Assembly (NCBI GenBank): GCA_015233395.1
Contig: JADFXV010000004.1
Location: forward strand, 1-35,000
Direction of reading: 5' to 3'
Length of the DNA: 35,000 nucleotides
From: Desulfovibrionaceae bacterium
GTDB lineage: Bacteria > Desulfobacterota > Desulfovibrionia > Desulfovibrionales > Desulfovibrionaceae
Positions 5,970 through 34,659 of the stretch are shown here, piece by piece. Position 1 is the first letter of the stretch, and each line of letters begins with the position of its first letter. Made by a program: the position numbers and the translations under genes. The notes beneath the pieces were generated by a model. It worked only from the letters and a program-made list of their open reading frames with translations, did no database searches and was not told where the DNA came from.

Positions 5970-6881
5970 ATGGCGCGATTGGGGCGGTTTGTCGCGGCCG
6001 TAGGGGCCGTGTTGCTGGTTTTGTGGTGCGCCGTTTCGGCTTTGGCCGGGGCGGGGGAGACGCTTGTGGTTCGGGAGCGTCTGGGGCGCGTGGACGTCGC
6101 GAATTTGCTTTTCAACGCCCAGTTCGGCCGGCCCATGCGGACGGTTCCCATTGCCGCCGCCGGGGCGCTTGACCCGGGTTTTCGCGAGCAGCTCGCCTTT
6201 TATCTGTATTTCCTGCAGGGCCGGGAAGTGGATTTGTATCTCCGGGACGGGGCGATCGTGGGGGCGGGTCTGCCTGGCGGGCGACCGTTTCTGGGAATCG
6301 CGGACGGCGCGCCGGTGGCCGCAGCCGCGCCGCAAACTCCGGAGGAGATCGCGGGCGAGCTTACGGCCCGGGGCGAGCGCGCCTGGCGGGAGCGTCCGGA
6401 GGCGGCCGCTTTTTTTGAGGCCAGGGGGCTCTTGGCCGGTGATATCGGCAAGAGGCCGGAAGAGATCGAGGCCGGGCGCGGCGTTTCGTTGGCCGCCGGC
6501 GGCGCGGCGGTTTATCGCGAGAAGCCCGCTTCGCTTGAGGGAACCTTGATTTCCGCGGACCTTGACTCCTTAGGCCGGGTGCAGGCCGTGGCCGGCTATC
6601 TCGCGTCCGTTCCCGGGCGCGACATGACCGGCTATCCGGCGGCGCGGGCGATCGCCGTTCTGATCGGCCCGGCCGACGCCGTCTCCGTTCTCTGCGGCGG
6701 CGAGCTCGTCATGCGGTATTTCGTCGCCTCCGGGGGACGCTATCTCGAATATTCCCTGGATTTGCGCCCGTCATGCGGCCGGCCGGAGACGGGCAAGGAT
6801 TATTTCGGCTTTGAGATCGTGGGGCGGATCGTGGACGTGGGCGAGGCGATCGGGAACGCCGAGGCGGCCGCGCGCCGCTAG
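5970..6881 (+). CDS. Hypothetical exported protein
   Basis: I do not recognise the family. 303 residues begin at the ATG at 5970, preceded by AAAGGGAG about 11 nt upstream; the frame upstream runs through the hairpin repeat and is not coding. Residues 1-27 form a clear signal peptide (hydrophobic VAAVGAVLLVLWCAVSALAGA). The mature part has a charged, Ala/Arg/Glu-rich middle (LTARGERAWRERPEAAAFFE) and a more hydrophobic C-terminal half with two cysteines (LCGGE, PSCGRP) that could form a disulfide in the periplasm. No lipobox and no later membrane segment are evident. It is transcribed alone; the metallophosphoesterase follows after 124 bases. Confidence 0.7.
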   Translation: MARLGRFVAAVGAVLLVLWCAVSALAGAGETLVVRERLGRVDVANLLFNAQFGRPMRTVPIAAAGALDPGFREQLAFYLYFLQGREVDLYLRDGAIVGAGLPGGRPFLGIADGAPVAAAAPQTPEEIAGELTARGERAWRERPEAAAFFEARGLLAGDIGKRPEEIEAGRGVSLAAGGAAVYREKPASLEGTLISADLDSLGRVQAVAGYLASVPGRDMTGYPAARAIAVLIGPADAVSVLCGGELVMRYFVASGGRYLEYSLDLRPSCGRPETGKDYFGFEIVGRIVDVGEAIGNAEAAARR

Positions 6882-7005
6882 CTCAAGACCTGCGGCGGCG
6901 CTGCGGCCGCACGCGACGGGTCCGGGGCTGCGCCCTTGACAAAAAGAACATACCGGTCGAGAAAAAAACGTCTGATAGCCGGGTCGTGCCCGAAAGGAAA
7001 CAGTT

Positions 7006-8325
7006 ATGAGCGCGACAGACGCCTCCAGTACTTTTCTTCTCTTTGGCGACGTGCATTTCGATCCCTTCGCCGACCCTTCTCTTGTCAAGTCTCTGGCCGC
7101 CTCGCCCGAGTCCGCCTGGAAGGGGCTTTTCGCCTCGTCGAAAATGACCGCCTATCCGGCCTACGGCAGCGACAGCAACTACGCTCTGTTCGAATCGGCC
7201 CTGAACAGCATGGCCGCGACGGCGGGCAACGTTGCGACCATCATCTATCCCGGCGATCTCTTGTGCCATAATTTCGACCAGACCTACGCCGCCCTGACCG
7301 GCGATGCGAGCCAGGCCGGGGTGAATTCCTTCATCCAAAAAACCGTGCAATTCTTCGCCCAGGAAGTGGAGGCCCGATTTCCGAACGCCACGGTGATCAT
7401 GGCCGACGGCAACAGCGACACCGCCCTGGTCGCTTTCGGTTCGCGGCCCGGCGACCCGTATTTGTCGTTTACGGCGCCGATCATATCCCAGGCCTTTTTC
7501 AAAAACTCCGCGGACCAGGCGGCCTTTACCTCGGGCTGGTCCGCGGCCGGGTATTACTCCGTGGAGCCCGCCGGCCCCACGGGGCTTAAGTACATCGTGC
7601 TCAATGACAATCTCTGGGCTCCGTTGCCGTACGGCGATCCCGTCGCCGGACAGGCGGAAATGTCCTGGTTCTCGTCGCAGCTGGCCGACGCGGCCATACA
7701 TGACCAACAGGTGTGCGTGGTCGCCCACATTCCGGTCGGAGCCGATCCCCAGACCGTGGCCAGCAACTACGCGCAGACCGGGGTGGCCGCCTACTCGGGA
7801 TACCTGGCCGATGCCTTCAACAGCGCCTTCACGTCGCTGGAATTGCAATACAGCTCGACCATCGCGGCCAACTTCGTCGGGCACATGCACAACGACGACT
7901 TCAGGCTCATAAGCTCCGGCGACTATCCCGGCGCGGCCGAACTCATGCGCATCACCCCCTCGATTTCACCGGTCTTCGGCAACAATCCCGGGTATCAGAT
8001 CTACAGCTACAATCCCCAGAATGATTCCCTGCTCGATGAGACGACCTACACCCTGAACCTCCAATCGAACGCGCCGGCCTGGGGCAAGGAATACGACTAC
8101 GCCCAGACCTACGGGCAAAGCCTGGCTGCGCCCCAGGACTGGGCCGCCACGTACGCCGGCATTCTGAACAACCCGGTCTCCCTGGCCGCCTACGCCAATA
8201 ATAAATTCCAAGGCGCCCCGCAAAGCGCCATCACGGCCGCAACCGCCCCGTTCTACCAGGCCGCGATCGGCTATGCCACGCCCGCCGCCTACAACGCCGC
8301 CGTCGCCGGATTGCTGGCGGGGTAG
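7006..8325 (+). CDS. Calcineurin-like metallophosphoesterase (acid-sphingomyelinase-like)
   Basis: 439 residues with the metallophosphoesterase ligand series: GDVHFDP (Asp15, His17), PGDLL (Asp84), GNSD (Asn136), AHIP (His241) and GHMH (His293, His295). The layout and the aromatic, Ser/Tyr-rich C-terminus resemble the acid sphingomyelinase-like branch, so a phosphodiester or phosphomonoester outside the cytoplasm is a likely substrate. Two oddities: the usual GNH has Ser137 in place of the catalytic His, and there is no signal peptide (an in-frame stop lies closely upstream, and AAAGGA precedes the ATG by about 9 nt). It may leave the cell by a leaderless route or act inside. A perfect TTGACA is present at 6936-6941 but no good -10 follows. 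Confidence 0.8.
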   Translation: MSATDASSTFLLFGDVHFDPFADPSLVKSLAASPESAWKGLFASSKMTAYPAYGSDSNYALFESALNSMAATAGNVATIIYPGDLLCHNFDQTYAALTGDASQAGVNSFIQKTVQFFAQEVEARFPNATVIMADGNSDTALVAFGSRPGDPYLSFTAPIISQAFFKNSADQAAFTSGWSAAGYYSVEPAGPTGLKYIVLNDNLWAPLPYGDPVAGQAEMSWFSSQLADAAIHDQQVCVVAHIPVGADPQTVASNYAQTGVAAYSGYLADAFNSAFTSLELQYSSTIAANFVGHMHNDDFRLISSGDYPGAAELMRITPSISPVFGNNPGYQIYSYNPQNDSLLDETTYTLNLQSNAPAWGKEYDYAQTYGQSLAAPQDWAATYAGILNNPVSLAAYANNKFQGAPQSAITAATAPFYQAAIGYATPAAYNAAVAGLLAG

Positions 8326-8552
8326 GGGCGATAGTCCGGCGCGGTTGCGCCCGGCCCCAATGCGGCCGATGCGGCCTGACGCGCCGAGCCTGACGCGAGG
8401 ACCAACCTTTCCCCGAGACGCGCGATGCCCTGCGGCCCGGAGAACGACGCCGGAGAATCCCGCCTATGTCTGTCATGAGAACCATGGGAATCGGGCAAGC
8501 CGTTTTCGGCGTTTGGCGCAACGATCGAATTGCAAGGAGAAAGGAGGCGTGC

Positions 8553-10526
8553 ATGCCGGTTTGTGAGGCGAGTTCGGAGAGAAACGTTTTGCTTTGCGCC
8601 ATCGCCCTGGTGTTTTTTTTGTCGTGCGCGCCCGCTTGGGCGCAGCAGGCGATATCGACGCCGATCCTGTCGTCCGCCCCGAATTTCAGAGATGTCGCGG
8701 GCATCTCGGCGAGCAACGGAGGAACCGGCTTCGTCAATCCGACCGCCAATAACGGCTGGATGCGCACCGGCGTGTTTTATCGTTCCAGCGCCCTGACGCT
8801 CTCCGGCGCGGATTTGGCGACCGTCTCCAGGTTCGGCATCGGCCGGGATATCGATTTGAGAACCCCGGCGGAGATCGCCGCGGCGCCCGATGTGGTTCCG
8901 CCTGGAACGACGTACACCAACGTCAACATCTTCGGCGTGCAGAGTCCGCCGCCGAGCCCCCCGGGCGTTCCCTCCCAGGACGCCGTGCTCAACACGGGCC
9001 AGAGCGGCTACCGGATGTTTGTCACCGATCCGGCCATGCGGGCGGGATTTGGCGCGGTCCTGACCACCCTGGCCCACGACCCCGGCCCCGATCTGTTCCA
9101 CTGCTCGGACGGCAAGGACCGCACGGGATGGACGGCGGCCCTGCTGGAGACCATCGCCGGCGTATCGCCCGCGACCCTCATGAAGGACTATCTGGCCTCC
9201 AACAGCTATCGGGCCGGGGACATCAATGCCCAGGCCGCGGCCATTTTGGCGGTGGCGCCGGGACTGGCGGGCAGGAATTTCAACGCGATGTTCGGGGTCG
9301 ATCCCAGCTATCTCCAGGCCGCGCTCGACCAGGCAGCCGCTTCCTACGGGTCGATGCAGGCCTATCTGACCCAGGGGCTGGGGCTTAGCCAGGCGGACAT
9401 CTACGTCCTGCGCGCCAAGATGGTCGACTACCCGGTCTTGCCCGGCCAATCCGCGTTGACCGGCAACGCCGCTTCCGGCGCGGCGTTTCTGAACGCCCTG
9501 CAGAACTCGCCGTTATCGGGCCATTACACCGCGTACAATTACTATCTGCAGTCGGCCGTGGACCAGGGCTCGCTCGGGGGCGTCCAGACGCAGGCCGGCG
9601 GCCAGGTGCACGCCGACGCCGCCGCGTATCTTTTGCGCCAACCGCAGTGGATCGACGAGGCGCTCGCGCCCTACGCCACCGCCCAGGGTCTTGGCGCCGG
9701 CCAGAGCCGCGTCTGGCTGGCGGGTCTGGGAGGCGAATTCTGGACCCAGGGTCGCGCGGGCTTTGCCGGCAGCTCGGAGTACAGCGCCGGCTCGGTCATG
9801 GGGGCGACGTACCGGCCAAGCGACCAGGCCAGCGCCGACATCGGCGTGGGCTACGATTGGGGTTCGGTCGCCAGCGCCGGCGCTTGCGCCACTCTCAACA
9901 CGGTTCTGGCCACGCTCGGCGTCCGGTACGGGTTTACAAGCCTGGAAGCCGGCCCGTACCTGCTTGCGCGCGCGACCGCCGGCTGGGTCGATTATCAAAG
10001 CCGGCGCGAACTGGGCGCGGGCCTGGGAACCGCGACCGGCAACTCCAACGGCGCGGTTTACAGCGGCCTGGCCGGTATCGGCGACGTGTTTCGCCTGGCT
10101 CGCGTGACCATCGCGCCGCAAATCGGCGTGCGCGTCGCCGGCGAAAACCTCGGCGGCTTCAACGAAAGCGGCAGCGACCTGGCCTTGAACGTCCACGGTT
10201 TGAGCAACACATCCGCCAGTCTCCTGGCCGGCCTGGAGATCGGTTTTGGCGGCAGGCAGCTCGGCGACTGGACCGTCGAACCCGCCGTCACGCTCGGGTA
10301 CGAGCGAGTCCTGGGCAATTCCCAGGTCCAAAGCACCGGGACGCTGTACGGTTTTTCCGTGGCCCAAAACTCGGCCTACGACAGCCGCGACCTATGGAAG
10401 GCCGGTCTGGGCGTTACGCTGACGCGCGGCGCTTGCAGCATCAAGGCCAGGGGCAACGCCGCGCTCGGCGACGAGGCGAAAAGCGGCGGCTTCGGCGGAC
10501 AGCTGTCGATCGGCTACAGTTTCTAA
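8553..10526 (+). CDS. Autotransporter with tyrosine-phosphatase passenger
   Basis: A two-part surface protein. The ATG at 8553 follows AAGGAGG and opens a signal peptide (residues 1-30, ending APAWA). Residues 40-320 form a Y_phosphatase3/PtpB-like domain: NFRDVAG (44-50), GVFYRSSAL (73-81), DLRTPAE (101-107) and the P-loop HCSDGKDRTG with Cys184 and Arg190. Residues from about 385 to 657 look like a type V autotransporter beta-barrel: alternating amphipathic strands, Gly/aromatic-rich, ending in Phe (SIGYSF). The passenger would be carried to the cell surface. Substrate is unknown; such phosphatases can act on phosphotyrosine, phosphoserine or phosphoinositides. It follows the metallophosphoesterase gene in the same direction after 227 bases. 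Confidence 0.88.
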   Translation: MPVCEASSERNVLLCAIALVFFLSCAPAWAQQAISTPILSSAPNFRDVAGISASNGGTGFVNPTANNGWMRTGVFYRSSALTLSGADLATVSRFGIGRDIDLRTPAEIAAAPDVVPPGTTYTNVNIFGVQSPPPSPPGVPSQDAVLNTGQSGYRMFVTDPAMRAGFGAVLTTLAHDPGPDLFHCSDGKDRTGWTAALLETIAGVSPATLMKDYLASNSYRAGDINAQAAAILAVAPGLAGRNFNAMFGVDPSYLQAALDQAAASYGSMQAYLTQGLGLSQADIYVLRAKMVDYPVLPGQSALTGNAASGAAFLNALQNSPLSGHYTAYNYYLQSAVDQGSLGGVQTQAGGQVHADAAAYLLRQPQWIDEALAPYATAQGLGAGQSRVWLAGLGGEFWTQGRAGFAGSSEYSAGSVMGATYRPSDQASADIGVGYDWGSVASAGACATLNTVLATLGVRYGFTSLEAGPYLLARATAGWVDYQSRRELGAGLGTATGNSNGAVYSGLAGIGDVFRLARVTIAPQIGVRVAGENLGGFNESGSDLALNVHGLSNTSASLLAGLEIGFGGRQLGDWTVEPAVTLGYERVLGNSQVQSTGTLYGFSVAQNSAYDSRDLWKAGLGVTLTRGACSIKARGNAALGDEAKSGGFGGQLSIGYSF

Positions 10527-18330: not shown

Positions 18331-19635
18331 TTATTTCTTGTCCAGGAACTTGAGCTCTTCATCGATGTTGAAGTCGTCGACTTGGCCTGGCGGGTCGCCC
18401 GAACCGGCTGGCGCGGCCGGTTTGGACGCGCCGCCGTTTTCGGCCTGGGCGAGCAGGGCGTCGATGTCGTCTTGCGAACCGGCTTTGGCGTCCGGTTTTT
18501 CGTCGAACAGGGCGGCGATGTCTTCGTCGCTCATGGCGGCGTTCGGGGCGGCTGGTTTTGGCGCGCCACCGCCATCGGCCTGGGCGAGCAGGGCGTCGAT
18601 GTCGTCTTGCGAACCGGCTTTGGCGTCCGGTTTTTCGTCCGGTTTTTCGTCGAACAGGGCGGCGATGTCTTCGTCGCTCATGGCGGCGTTCGGGGCGGCT
18701 GGTTTGGACACGCCGCCGCCATCGGCCTGGGCGAGCAGGGCGTCGATGTCGTCTTGCGAACCGGCTTTGGCGGCCGGTTTGGCGGCCGGCGCGGCGCTTG
18801 GCTTTTCGTCGAGCAGGGCGGCGATATCGTCTTCGCTCATGGCGGCGGGCTCGGTCTCGGCCTTGAGAGAGCCGGTCGAGCCGGGCGGCTCGTCCTCGAT
18901 CATGGAGGCGTCCAGGTCGAGGATGTCGTCGGCGGGCGAAGAGAGATCGTCCCGGGCGGGCGGCGTTTCGGGCTTGGGAGCGCGCGCCGGGGCGGGCGGC
19001 GAGACAGGAGCGGCCGATGCGGCCGGTTCGGCCGGTTCGACCATTTCGGCCGGTTCGCTCCGCAAGTCAGGCTCGGCGGCCTTTTTCCGGGACGTGCGCA
19101 CGGGCGCGGCCTTTTGCTTTTGCGCCGGGGCCTGGGGCCAGGGTTCGTCGAGCGGAGCGCGCCTGACGGCGTCGATCCGGGCGCGTTCGCCGGACAGGCG
19201 GGCGGCCATGACGCCGAATTCGCTAAACAGACGGTCGCGCAGGTCGCGGACCTGGGCTATTTTGCGCCGCACCTGCGCCAGTTCCGCGAGCAGTTTGTTT
19301 TCGGCGTCGACGAACCCGAGATATTCCTCGTCCTGTGAGGCGACCCGCTCGCCCATGCCGATCAGGCCGATCAGATCGTCGCAATAGCCGATCTCCTCGT
19401 TCTCGACGAGGATGTCGCGGTAGGCCTTTTTGGCTTCATGGGAAGCGTCTCGGTCTTCCTGGACGAGCCGGTTGTGGTACTGGGAAATTTCTTTTTTGCG
19501 GCGCTTGTGGAGTTCTTTTTGCGAGGCCGTGGGTTCTTTTTTCAGGATGAAGCGACGGATTTTGACGATATCGTCGCGCATCCTGGAGTCGTCCGGGTCG
19601 CTTGCGGTCTGGTCGGTGGGGTGACGATCGCTCAT
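18331..19635 (-). CDS. Coiled-coil protein with six tandem FliM-N-like motifs
   Basis: 434 residues, no signal peptide or membrane segment. Residues 20-160 are highly charged and helical, probably coiled coil (KELHKRRKKEISQYHN; LLAELAQVRRKIAQVRDLRD). Residues 165-260 are a Pro/Ala/Glu-rich linker. Residues 266-396 hold six short acidic peptides alternating in two types: MSEDDIAALL (266), SQDDIDALL (293), MSDEDIAALF (319), SQDDIDALL (342), MSDEDIAALF (368), SQDDIDALL (387), spaced by Ala/Pro/Gly-rich linkers. The peptide matches the N-terminal CheY-P-binding segment of FliM (LSQAEIDALL in E. coli). The C-terminus ends with another acidic IDEELKFL. The family as a whole is not recognised. A CTTATATAAG palindrome at 19642-19651 lies just upstream of the start. 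Confidence 0.8.
   Translation of the reverse strand: MSDRHPTDQTASDPDDSRMRDDIVKIRRFILKKEPTASQKELHKRRKKEISQYHNRLVQEDRDASHEAKKAYRDILVENEEIGYCDDLIGLIGMGERVASQDEEYLGFVDAENKLLAELAQVRRKIAQVRDLRDRLFSEFGVMAARLSGERARIDAVRRAPLDEPWPQAPAQKQKAAPVRTSRKKAAEPDLRSEPAEMVEPAEPAASAAPVSPPAPARAPKPETPPARDDLSSPADDILDLDASMIEDEPPGSTGSLKAETEPAAMSEDDIAALLDEKPSAAPAAKPAAKAGSQDDIDALLAQADGGGVSKPAAPNAAMSDEDIAALFDEKPDEKPDAKAGSQDDIDALLAQADGGGAPKPAAPNAAMSDEDIAALFDEKPDAKAGSQDDIDALLAQAENGGASKPAAPAGSGDPPGQVDDFNIDEELKFLDKK
18436..18855 (-). repeat. Tandem coding repeats (FliM-N-like peptides)
   Basis: Three units of about 45-53 codons, each with one MSxxDIAAL(L/F)DEKP and one GSQDDIDALLAQA block. Units 2 and 3 are nearly identical at DNA level, differing mainly by a 4-codon duplication (DEKP) at 18640-18651, a sign of recent expansion by slippage or recombination. 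Confidence 0.9.
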
Positions 19636-19812: not shown

Positions 19813-20691
19813 ATGGACCAATCGTCTCCGGAAACGGTCGATTTTTACAAGATGCAGGGTTGCGGCAACGATTTCGTTCTTATCGACAACCGGGGCCTGG
19901 GACTTGACCCCGCCGCCATGCCCGAATGGGCGAAAAAGCTCTGCCGCCGCGCCTTCGGCGTCGGCGCCGACGGGCTGATTCTGCTGGACGCGGCCCAGGG
20001 CCGCGCGGACGTCGATTATATCTGGCATTTTTTCAACGCCGACGGTTCGCGCGCGGCGATGTGCGGCAACGGCGCGCGCTGCGCCGCCAAGCTCGCGGTG
20101 GCGCTCGGCCTGGCCGGACCGCGCCACCGTTTCGGTACGGACGCCGGGCCGATCGAGGCCGAGGTGTTCCCGGACACGGGCCTGGCGCGGGTCGAACTGA
20201 CCAGGCCCGGGCCGCTTGAAGAGAATGTCGTCCTCGACCTGCCGGGCGGTTCCCGGTCCGCCTCGTTCGTGAACACGGGCGTGCCGCACGCCGTGATTTT
20301 CGTGGACGACGCAAGCGCCGTGAACGTCAGGGAACTGGGAGCGGCCGTGCGCTTTCACGCGCGTTTCGCCCCGGCCGGGACCAACGCCAATTTCGTCCAG
20401 GCCGCCGGGCCCGGCCGGCTGATCCTGCGCACCTACGAACGCGGCGTCGAGGACGAGACCCACGCCTGCGGCACGGGCGCTTGCGCCGCGGCCCTGGCCG
20501 CCAGGGCGCGCGGTCTGGGCGGGGACGACTACGCGGTGCGCACCAGCGGCGGGGAAACGCTCCGCGTGAGTCTGCAAGGCGACCGGGTTTTTCTGACCGG
20601 CGCGGCGGATACGGTCTTTACCGGCGCGTTCAGCCCGGGGGCCTTGGGTCTGTCCGGACTTCGCGCCGGCCTCGCGCGGGAGGGCGCATGA
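19813..20691 (+). CDS. dapF: Diaminopimelate epimerase
   Basis: Converts LL- to meso-diaminopimelate for lysine and peptidoglycan synthesis, PLP-independent, cytoplasmic. The ATG at 19813 with GGGAG upstream gives 292 residues. Landmarks: FYKMQGCGNDFVLIDN (11-26), the first catalytic Cys in MCGNGARC (Cys84), the second in HACGTGAC (Cys219), and GVPHAVIFVDD. The frame extends upstream but without similarity. The stop codon overlaps the start of the next gene (ATGA), indicating coupling. Confidence 0.95.
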   Translation: MDQSSPETVDFYKMQGCGNDFVLIDNRGLGLDPAAMPEWAKKLCRRAFGVGADGLILLDAAQGRADVDYIWHFFNADGSRAAMCGNGARCAAKLAVALGLAGPRHRFGTDAGPIEAEVFPDTGLARVELTRPGPLEENVVLDLPGGSRSASFVNTGVPHAVIFVDDASAVNVRELGAAVRFHARFAPAGTNANFVQAAGPGRLILRTYERGVEDETHACGTGACAAALAARARGLGGDDYAVRTSGGETLRVSLQGDRVFLTGAADTVFTGAFSPGALGLSGLRAGLAREGA

Positions 20692-29908: not shown

Positions 29909-30292
29909 ATGCCCGCGAACAAAGACATGCGTATCCTCGTGGTGGACGATTTCTCCACCATGCGCCGGATCATCAAAAACATCCTGCGGCAGCTGGGGTT
30001 CTCCAACATCGTCGAGGCCGACGACGGCTCCACCGCCTGGGAGATGTTGAACAAAGAACACATCGATTTCGTGATCTCCGACTGGAATATGCCCCAGATG
30101 CCGGGCATCGACCTGTTGCGCAAGGTGCGCGGCAGCGAGGAACTGGGCGCCCTGCCGTTTCTGATGGTCACCGCCGAGGCCCAGCAGGAAAACATCATCG
30201 AGGCCGTCCAGGCCAAGGTGTCCAACTACATCGTCAAGCCGTTCACGGCCGAGACCCTTGGGCAGAAAATCGACAAGATCTTCGAAAAGTAG
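29909..30292 (+). CDS. cheY: Chemotaxis response regulator CheY
   Basis: Single receiver domain of 127 residues; when phosphorylated by CheA it binds FliM and changes motor rotation. The acidic pair Asp13/Asp14, phospho-acceptor Asp58 (VISDWNMP), Thr88 (MVTAE) and Lys110 (VKPF) are in place, and VDDFSTMRRIIKNILRQLGF matches enterobacterial CheY closely. A GGAGG precedes the ATG by 5 nt. It has its own promoter. No cheA, cheB or cheR is nearby; the placement within the flagellar cluster supports a motor-binding CheY. Confidence 0.95.
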   Translation: MPANKDMRILVVDDFSTMRRIIKNILRQLGFSNIVEADDGSTAWEMLNKEHIDFVISDWNMPQMPGIDLLRKVRGSEELGALPFLMVTAEAQQENIIEAVQAKVSNYIVKPFTAETLGQKIDKIFEK

Positions 30293-33715: not shown

Positions 33716-34573
33716 CTAAAAAGGATTGATCGTGCGTTCGCGCGAATAGTTCATGTAGCCGACGTTGGCGCCCAGGCGCAGCCCGACGCCGAAGCGGATC
33801 GGCGCCAGCACGATATTGCCCGAACGCTGGTAGTTCATGCCGAAGCCGCCGATGAAGTACGCGCTGCCGTCCACGCCCGGAAAGCGCTGGAAGATTTTGT
33901 CCGCGTCTTCCATGCTGTAGACAAGGACGAACACCTTGGCGGCGTCGGCGCCGATGTCGAAGCCGATGGTCGGACTTTGCCAGTAGACTTCGCGGCTCTG
34001 GCCGTTCTTGAGCTTGAGTTTGCCTTCGCCGTAACGCAAACCGACCACCAGGGCGCCCGCGCCCTCGCCGCCCTTGATAAAACCCGTGGGCCGGCCCAGA
34101 TCCTTGAAGGCTTTGGCGATCAGCGAGGCCACTCCCTGGCTGCCGCCCTCGAAAAAGCCCATGACTTCCCGGTCGATTTCGTTTTTGCCGTAGGTCTTTT
34201 CCTTATCGGCCATGTCGAACACGTCTTCGCTAGGCGAACCCGGGCCGGAATCGGCCGTGGCCGGTTCGGCTCTTTGCGGCGCGGGCTCGGATTTTTTCGC
34301 CGGCGGGGATTGTTTGCCAACTTTGTCGCCGGCCGGCGCCTCCCAGTCCGAAGATGAGGATTTGGCCGGGGCGGCGGAGGGTCTGGCCTCGACGCCGGAG
34401 GGTTTGGCGTTGTCGACGGCGGCCGGCTGGGGCGCGGTCTTGGCCGGAGGCGAGACGTCATCGGTGAGGTTGCGTTCCTGAATCTGTCCGGCGGCGGACG
34501 CCCCCTGAGCCAAGGCGAAAACGAGAGAGAGGACGGCCAAGGGGATCAAGCTGAGCAGGCGCGATATGGTCAT
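33716..34573 (-). CDS. EipA/DUF1134-family envelope protein
   Basis: 285 residues from the ATG at 34573, chosen because GGAGG is 6 nt upstream; an ATG at 34579 abuts the ribosome site. A signal peptide (SLIPLAVLSLVFALAQGASA, ending ASA-AG) precedes a Pro/Ala/Ser-rich disordered linker (about 35-118). The DUF1134 domain follows: GFFEGGSQGVASLIAKAF, DLGRPTGFIKG, ALVVGLRYGEG, VYWQSPTIGFDIG and QRFPGVDGSAYFIGG, then NYQRSGNIVLAPIRFGVG and LRLGANVGYMNYS. In Brucella EipA affects envelope integrity and is found mostly in alpha-proteobacteria; the linker is longer than I would expect. The gene is monocistronic. Confidence 0.9.
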   Translation of the reverse strand: MTISRLLSLIPLAVLSLVFALAQGASAAGQIQERNLTDDVSPPAKTAPQPAAVDNAKPSGVEARPSAAPAKSSSSDWEAPAGDKVGKQSPPAKKSEPAPQRAEPATADSGPGSPSEDVFDMADKEKTYGKNEIDREVMGFFEGGSQGVASLIAKAFKDLGRPTGFIKGGEGAGALVVGLRYGEGKLKLKNGQSREVYWQSPTIGFDIGADAAKVFVLVYSMEDADKIFQRFPGVDGSAYFIGGFGMNYQRSGNIVLAPIRFGVGLRLGANVGYMNYSRERTINPF

Positions 34574-34659
34574 TGGCATCCTCCGCGAAATGTCGCTGCC
34601 GCCAGGCGGCGTTACTTTGCCAATATGCCACGGCTAGCGGCAAAAAGAAAGGCCCGGCG

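Follow-up and report, generated by a model that had tools for sequence, protein, structure and literature searches.

What might a protein do with a tandem array of peptides that resemble the N-terminus of the flagellar switch protein FliM? The question is raised by an open reading frame of 434 residues (18331..19635, minus strand, stop included in the coordinates) in the 35,000-nucleotide stretch of DNA from a Desulfovibrionaceae bacterium that we analysed, referred to here as the window. Docking of the N-terminal peptide of FliM (FliM-N) and of the C-terminal peptide of CheZ (CheZ-C) to CheY is established already, and an earlier note on this DNA had placed six such peptides of one soluble protein at 18436-18855 and proposed it as a possible multivalent partner of CheY. 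The peptides do lie within that span, at 18442-18840. Judging from the sequence, we give not quite an even chance to the view that the protein is a soluble, multivalent scaffold or sink that would bind phosphorylated CheY (CheY-P).

An orphan coding frame near a flagellar cluster

The frame is coding by codon usage, at 0.59 bits per codon overall and with all seven segments positive, under a model trained on the adjoining genes with dapF left out; the three plus-strand frames that overlap it scored -0.48, -0.04 and -1.85 bits per codon. It is divergent from dapF, whose ATG we read at 19813, and a pair of RND efflux pump genes, identified by domain search, lies downstream on the same strand. 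A flagellar cluster starts about 3.4 kb away on the opposite strand, with fliR, flhB, flhA, flhF, an flhG-like gene, fliA, cheY and fliL, the flhB and flhF assignments being matches under the NCBIfam cut-offs. The distance of 10 kb to cheY given previously agrees with its position at 29909-30292. A promoter and terminator scan around the frame returned no sigma-70-like site and 7 terminator-like sites, with 3.6 expected. Elsewhere in the window, a single frame at 8466-10526 (plus strand) combines a tyrosine-phosphatase family (PF13350, 5.2e-53) with an autotransporter beta-domain (PF03797, 1.6e-24), and its product is possibly a surface-exposed phosphatase. Another frame, at 33716-34579 (minus strand), strongly matches the envelope integrity protein EipA (PF06577, 4.1e-66), known mainly from alphaproteobacteria.

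The 434-residue protein matched no Pfam or NCBIfam family at 0.01, and at that threshold neither the FliM domain (PF02154) nor the SpoA/FliMN_C domain of FliN and FliY (PF01052) was found in it with Pfam. Matches to PHROG were weak (best 0.021), and a PDB sequence search gave two flavodoxins only, at E 0.40 and 0.44. Searched whole against 59 relatives, the protein was detected at E <= 0.001 in one, its own genome; its N-terminal 143 residues were likewise detected at E <= 0.001 in their own genome alone among 288 of the family, the other 287 having no homologue at this threshold. When the N-terminal 150 residues were the query, 24 of 199 family genomes gave a match at E <= 0.1 (its own included; best other 0.004), and among the matches listed, those whose frames could be read looked by eye like matches of coiled coil or of composition. 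In the order, 10 of 297 genomes matched the whole protein at E <= 0.01, its own included. Six of the ten other loci from that search were read (L113, L114, L116 and L117 were left out): L109, which we take to be CheA-like, matched by composition; L111 and L115 turned out to be unrelated proteins; L110 together with L118 forms one frame of the hub type described below, and L112 is of the same type. Stretches containing the peptide word, 47 from species-genome contigs and 20 from viral contigs, yielded no confirmed homologue. None of these searches, with the whole protein or its N-terminal part, thus gave a convincing relative. By a motif test, the flanks of dapF in 29 relatives (L080-L108, 3.4 to 4.0 kb) contained no array frame of at least 90 residues, and the single motifs flagged in 4 of the 29 were not arrays.

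Searches of the open-access literature listed no free-standing soluble protein in which FliM-N peptides are repeated. An orphan accessory chemotaxis factor would have precedents, since ChePep and CheO of the Campylobacterota, to which we liken the protein by description only, are accessory chemotaxis proteins restricted to their lineage that were discovered experimentally rather than through a domain. For CheO, the pull-downs described in the available text of its paper did not confirm CheY binding.

Three repeated units in a predicted disordered tail

AlphaFold2, run on the single sequence, predicted helices at residues 14-32, 37-99 and 103-159 (19159..19596, minus strand), which would form a helical hairpin or coiled coil; ten-residue blocks from 11 to 160 had pLDDT values of 54-92. 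The mean pLDDT of the model was 56, so its assignment of helix and disorder is indicative only. An acidic P/A-rich linker (residues 187-265; 18841..19077, minus strand) is predicted to be disordered from composition and from the model. Within it, residues 236-249, DDILDLDASMIEDE (18889..18930, minus strand), resemble DLIDLDSLMAES of a hub-type protein encoded in the same genome (L131), a likeness seen by eye and unscored.

The tail then contains three units, starting at residues 266, 319 and 368, each consisting of an A peptide followed by a B peptide. The A peptides, MS[ED][DE]DIAAL[LF]DE, start with the units and read MSEDDIAALLDE in A1 (18805..18840) and MSDEDIAALFDE in both A2 (18646..18681) and A3 (18499..18534). 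The B peptide reads SQDDIDALLAQA in all three copies, which start at residues 293, 342 and 387 (B1, 18724..18759; B2, 18577..18612; B3, 18442..18477; all six on the minus strand). Each of the six coincides with a short predicted helix in an otherwise disordered tail (268-276, 321-328 and 370-378 for A; 294-305, 343-354 and 388-399 for B), with pLDDT values of 46-71 in the peptide blocks. A seventh predicted helix, NIDEELKF, lies at the C-terminus (residues 424-431; 18343..18366, minus strand).

A fold search with the model gave no match at E <= 0.001, and structure comparison gave generic helical hairpins only (best Z 9.0, 128 residues, 3.5 A); the absence of CheZ from that listing carries no evidential weight. 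In this low-confidence single-sequence model, the predicted order of parts would match that of E. coli CheZ, for which the available part of one paper gives an N-terminal helix, a hairpin at 35-168, a linker and a C-terminal helix (PMC7750401). The protein could on this ground be a CheZ-like regulator that acts on CheY-P, built of hairpin, linker and docking helix with the docking peptides amplified. We consider this highly improbable: there is no PF04344 match at 0.01, the genome encodes a separate CheZ, the similarity to that CheZ is confined to the peptide, and on reading the FQDLTGQ stretch of CheZ is absent.

At the DNA level, B1, B2 and B3 are identical, with no differences across 14 codons in any of the three pairs. 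A2 equals A3, and A1 differs from both by three silent and three amino-acid changes in 14 codons. Two 147-nucleotide copies, 18484-18630 (B2 to A3) and 18631-18777 (B1 to A2), have 95% identity, against 68% for a third at 18349-18495, which bears out the earlier impression that the units were recently amplified. Since its copies are nearly identical, the array is young, and the likeness between its units is for this reason no evidence for selection. The 95% identity is also consistent with a fast-evolving low-complexity tail that was expanded by unequal crossing over and has no specific receiver partner, as are the A/P/D/E-rich composition of the region and the orphan state of the gene. We nevertheless regard such a tail as an unlikely explanation, given the codon signal in all seven segments and the behaviour of shuffled sequences. 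When residues 187-434 were shuffled, the pattern [SN]Qxx[IV]DxLL appeared at least once in 4 of 200,000 shuffles, and [DE][DE][ILV]xAL[LFM] appeared at least once in 38 of 20,000 and six times in none of 20,000, both patterns having been chosen post hoc. The seed motif of B is thus not expected from the composition of the tail, with a pattern picked after the sequence was read.

Resemblance to the docking peptides of FliM and CheZ

Which of the known docking contacts could the peptides make? In the available part of a structural account (PMC3774744), FliM touches CheY through D3, S4, L6, Q8, I11, D12, L14 and residue 16, and CheY touches FliM through A90, K91, K92, I95, A99, Y106, V108, K119 and K122. 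Of these, Q8, I11, D12 and L14 of FliM contact V108, I95/A99/Y106 and K119 of CheY, and a contact of L15 is tabulated for the Vibrio model (PMC3774744). The B peptide keeps Q8, I11, D12, L14 and L15, and the core is thus present in three of the six peptides. B lacks the L6 anchor and the D3/S4 contacts, and GSQDDIDALL has G at position 6. Because the A peptides have neither Q8 nor D12, the six FliM-N-like peptides proposed before come down to three canonical sites.

The genome's own FliM does not lack an SQxDIDALL-like N-terminus, an absence that the earlier note had named as fatal to the CheY interpretation. The single FliM match of the genome, on a contig other than that of the window, begins with MSKILNQDEVDILL and has the core NQDEVDILL. 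Among the matches listed, all 29 FliM-type N-termini read in the family have KIL or KVL. The CheZ of the same genome, which is over the PF04344 cut-off, ends in NQAGVDDLLAQLGM / GANQAGVDDLLAQLGM, with the core NQAGVDDLL, and also has no L6; E. coli CheZ (1kmi) reads VASQDQVDDLLDSLG, with the core SQDQVDDLL. B thus shares with FliM-N the Q-x-x-[IV]-D-x-L-L core and a disordered tether, and the local CheY pocket is largely conserved, but FliM-N has the L6 anchor and occurs once in the genome's FliM, a C-ring protein, whereas a FliM domain is absent from the window protein. With CheZ-C it shares an [SN]-Q-x-x-V-D-D-L-L type of core, a linker behind a predicted helical hairpin and the absence of L6, but CheZ-C is a single copy at the extreme C-terminus of a protein with a phosphatase domain, which the window protein does not have. 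By its sequence, B appears intermediate between FliM-N and CheZ-C, sharing the absence of L6 with the CheZ of its own genome, and the window protein, FliM and CheZ are three candidate CheY-docking proteins found in this genome. The proposal of CheY docking therefore holds for B to the extent that core contacts are kept and FliM and CheZ carry peptides of the same kind, and it is weakened by the missing L6 and by the non-canonical A peptides. Beside fliM we also observed a frame (L001:616-1161, minus strand) with two tandem LA[AE]EWA[AK]AL[EA]T motifs in the N-terminal tail of its product, which by position we take to be FliN-like.

The putative partner is the CheY encoded in the window (29909..30292, plus strand; PF00072), a close relative of Vibrio CheY3 (4hns, 6.8e-51). 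Ten pocket positions were compared, the tabulated position V106 not being among them. The local CheY agrees at seven (A, I, I, Y, V, K, K) and has Q, Q and V in place of K94, R95 and A102. Both Q lie where D3/S4 of FliM would be met, the part that is absent from B.

A profile built from 8 FliM N-termini was scanned over 474,647 positions, in loci partly chosen by motif. B scored 22.8, the highest of the non-FliM peptides, with E. coli FliM at 21.0, E. coli CheZ at 19.2 and the genome's own CheZ at 12.4; A1, at 12.2, was about equal to the last of these, and the other A peptides scored 2.6. A peptide from a lyase reached 20.4, and hub peptides in register ranged from about 6 to 22.7. On the FliM profile alone, B cannot be told from the lyase peptide or from the highest-scoring hub peptides. 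Q8 distinguishes it from most of the hub peptides, and its location in a tail predicted to be disordered distinguishes it from the lyase peptide.

Occurrence of the motif in other proteins

Across the genome of the window, the looser pattern Q[DE][DE][IMV][DE]x[LF][LF] has 5 sites, namely the three B peptides, FliM and one unrelated site in a frame that is glycosyltransferase-like by eye, and the reversed pattern used as control has none. The tighter pattern occurs in 156 of 199 family genomes, and the 30 loci read among the matches listed comprise 29 FliM-type N-termini (by motif) and one lyase. A search for QDDMDALL in family genomes led to a lyase in 10 of the 16 regions fetched. We take this lyase to be EutB-like, and the peptide is presumably there for reasons other than CheY docking. 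The remaining six regions hold an array protein (L063), a 185-residue frame (L074), a 52-residue frame (L076), unrelated proteins (L077 and L078) and, in L075, no frame of at least 50 residues with a motif of this type.

In the species-genome collection, one scan with a DNA pattern for SQD[DE]IDALLAQA matched one contig only, which belongs to a Phycisphaerae assembly; the pattern was exact, leaving out near variants, and the genome of the window may be excluded from that collection. The matching frame (L127:1009-1743, plus strand) encodes a FliN-type switch protein (PF01052, 9.3e-25), which begins MSEADKPLSQEDIDAALAGLG and runs on to FSQDDIDALLAQAGDL. In its N-terminal tail an A/P linker carries two FliM-N-like peptides, LSQEDIDAALAG and SQDDIDALLAQA, of which the latter is identical to B over 12 residues. 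Unlike the window protein, this switch protein has a C-ring domain and only two peptides. In B. subtilis, FliY has an N-terminal CheY-binding motif, according to the available part of one paper (PMC8809382). The single independent 12-mer found is in a flagellar switch protein beside a second such peptide, and this is the strongest single support for an interaction of the window protein with CheY.

Acidic-helix arrays in related genomes

If arrays of similar peptides exist in proteins of other kinds, does the B peptide point to CheY at all? In this bacterial family the searches brought up a separate protein family, referred to here as hub-type. Where the start is included, it is DIIELTD-like; the middle is acidic and looks disordered in several members, and a coiled coil is followed by a C-terminal helix of the AAARIIREEI type. 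The layout may resemble that of the alphaproteobacterial PopZ. Its members include a protein of the genome analysed here (L131, contig C126, 1498-2745, minus strand), L063 of genome G060 (6432-8228, minus strand), and L110 (2-1804, plus strand) and L112 (1-2448, minus strand) from G321/G295; among the candidates L119-L124, five were read and L123 was left out. In the hub members scanned, neither Pfam nor NCBIfam gave a match at the family cut-off. Counted with one regular expression, D-D-[IL]-D-x-LL/M peptides number 6 in L063, 9 in L110 (frame cut at its start), 10 in L112 (frame cut at its end), 3 in L120, 1 in L122, 3 in L131, 2 in L121 and none in L119 and L124, a range of 0-10 over nine frames. 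The AAARIIREEI-like helix is present in eight of the nine, L112 being cut before that position. A profile of this helix found only the C126 protein in the genome of the window.

The window protein shares with some hub members a disordered-looking P/A-rich stretch that contains several amphipathic acidic peptides, and tandem D-D-[IL]-D-x-LL peptides of variable copy number on P/A/K linkers are found in both. L112 in particular alternates ADDLEALMSQMDQKP and ATEDLDALLGEMQ on P/A/K linkers, the same two-peptide layout as in the window protein. Given this common style of array, both kinds of protein may also have the same partner, which may not be CheY. The window protein would then be an array of short amphipathic acidic helices that interact among themselves or with some other partner, as a polar organiser or condensate scaffold, and the Q of B would be coincidental. 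This agrees with the variable counts and with L063, which has QDDIDALL twice and yet no flagellar match among ten neighbouring frames: seven matched Pfam families and three matched nothing, the surroundings consisting of cobalamin, methyltransferase and other metabolic genes. By contrast, the array peptides listed have no Q at position 8 except in L063, B outscores the hub peptides in the FliM profile, if barely (22.8 against 22.7 at best), and on reading the window protein has neither the C-terminal helix nor the DIIELTD signature; in the hub family, the coiled coil is C-terminal and ends in the conserved helix. We rejected the window protein as a member of the family, both end signatures being absent and BLASTP against L131 giving nothing convincing (E 0.15). 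That it works in the manner of a hub array all the same is a serious alternative, though a less probable one than CheY-P docking. The expectation that interest would drop if such peptides were common in unrelated proteins came true in part, as hub arrays carry similar peptides, mostly without Q.

A putative CheY-P trap and its significance

Returning to the CheY-P scaffold, we tentatively propose, with less assurance than for binding as such, a free-standing cytoplasmic CheY-P trap that is neither switch nor phosphatase. It may have arisen when a docking peptide of FliM or CheZ was captured and amplified in tandem, and it may set the free CheY-P pool or concentrate CheY-P locally, to a degree that evolution could tune through copy number. 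The N-terminal helical hairpin would hold the long disordered tail, whose B peptides would be disordered when free and helical once bound. The three B helices could each take one CheY-P on its alpha4-beta5-alpha5 face, as FliM-N and CheZ-C do, and the A peptides may bind more weakly or serve another partner. With several CheY-P held per protein, the tail would be a local store or sink for CheY-P, which it would buffer or concentrate, and the scaffold would compete for the signal with FliM, and for access with the tail of CheZ. What we observed concerns sequence; that CheY-P is bound, that binding depends on phosphorylation, that it is multivalent in the cell and that the motor is affected are all inferred. 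We count against a role with CheY that the gene is an orphan, on the strand opposite the flagellar cluster and upstream of the RND pair, and that the A peptides are non-canonical.

If the B peptides bind CheY-P, chemotaxis would have, in addition to switch and phosphatase, a third type of ligand for CheY-P, a passive multivalent reservoir, and this would alter the way in which the signal is passed to the motor. It would also be a clean example of a bacterial linear motif amplified in tandem. If the protein is instead a hub array, this bacterial family would have a system of acidic-helix arrays with strongly variable copy number.
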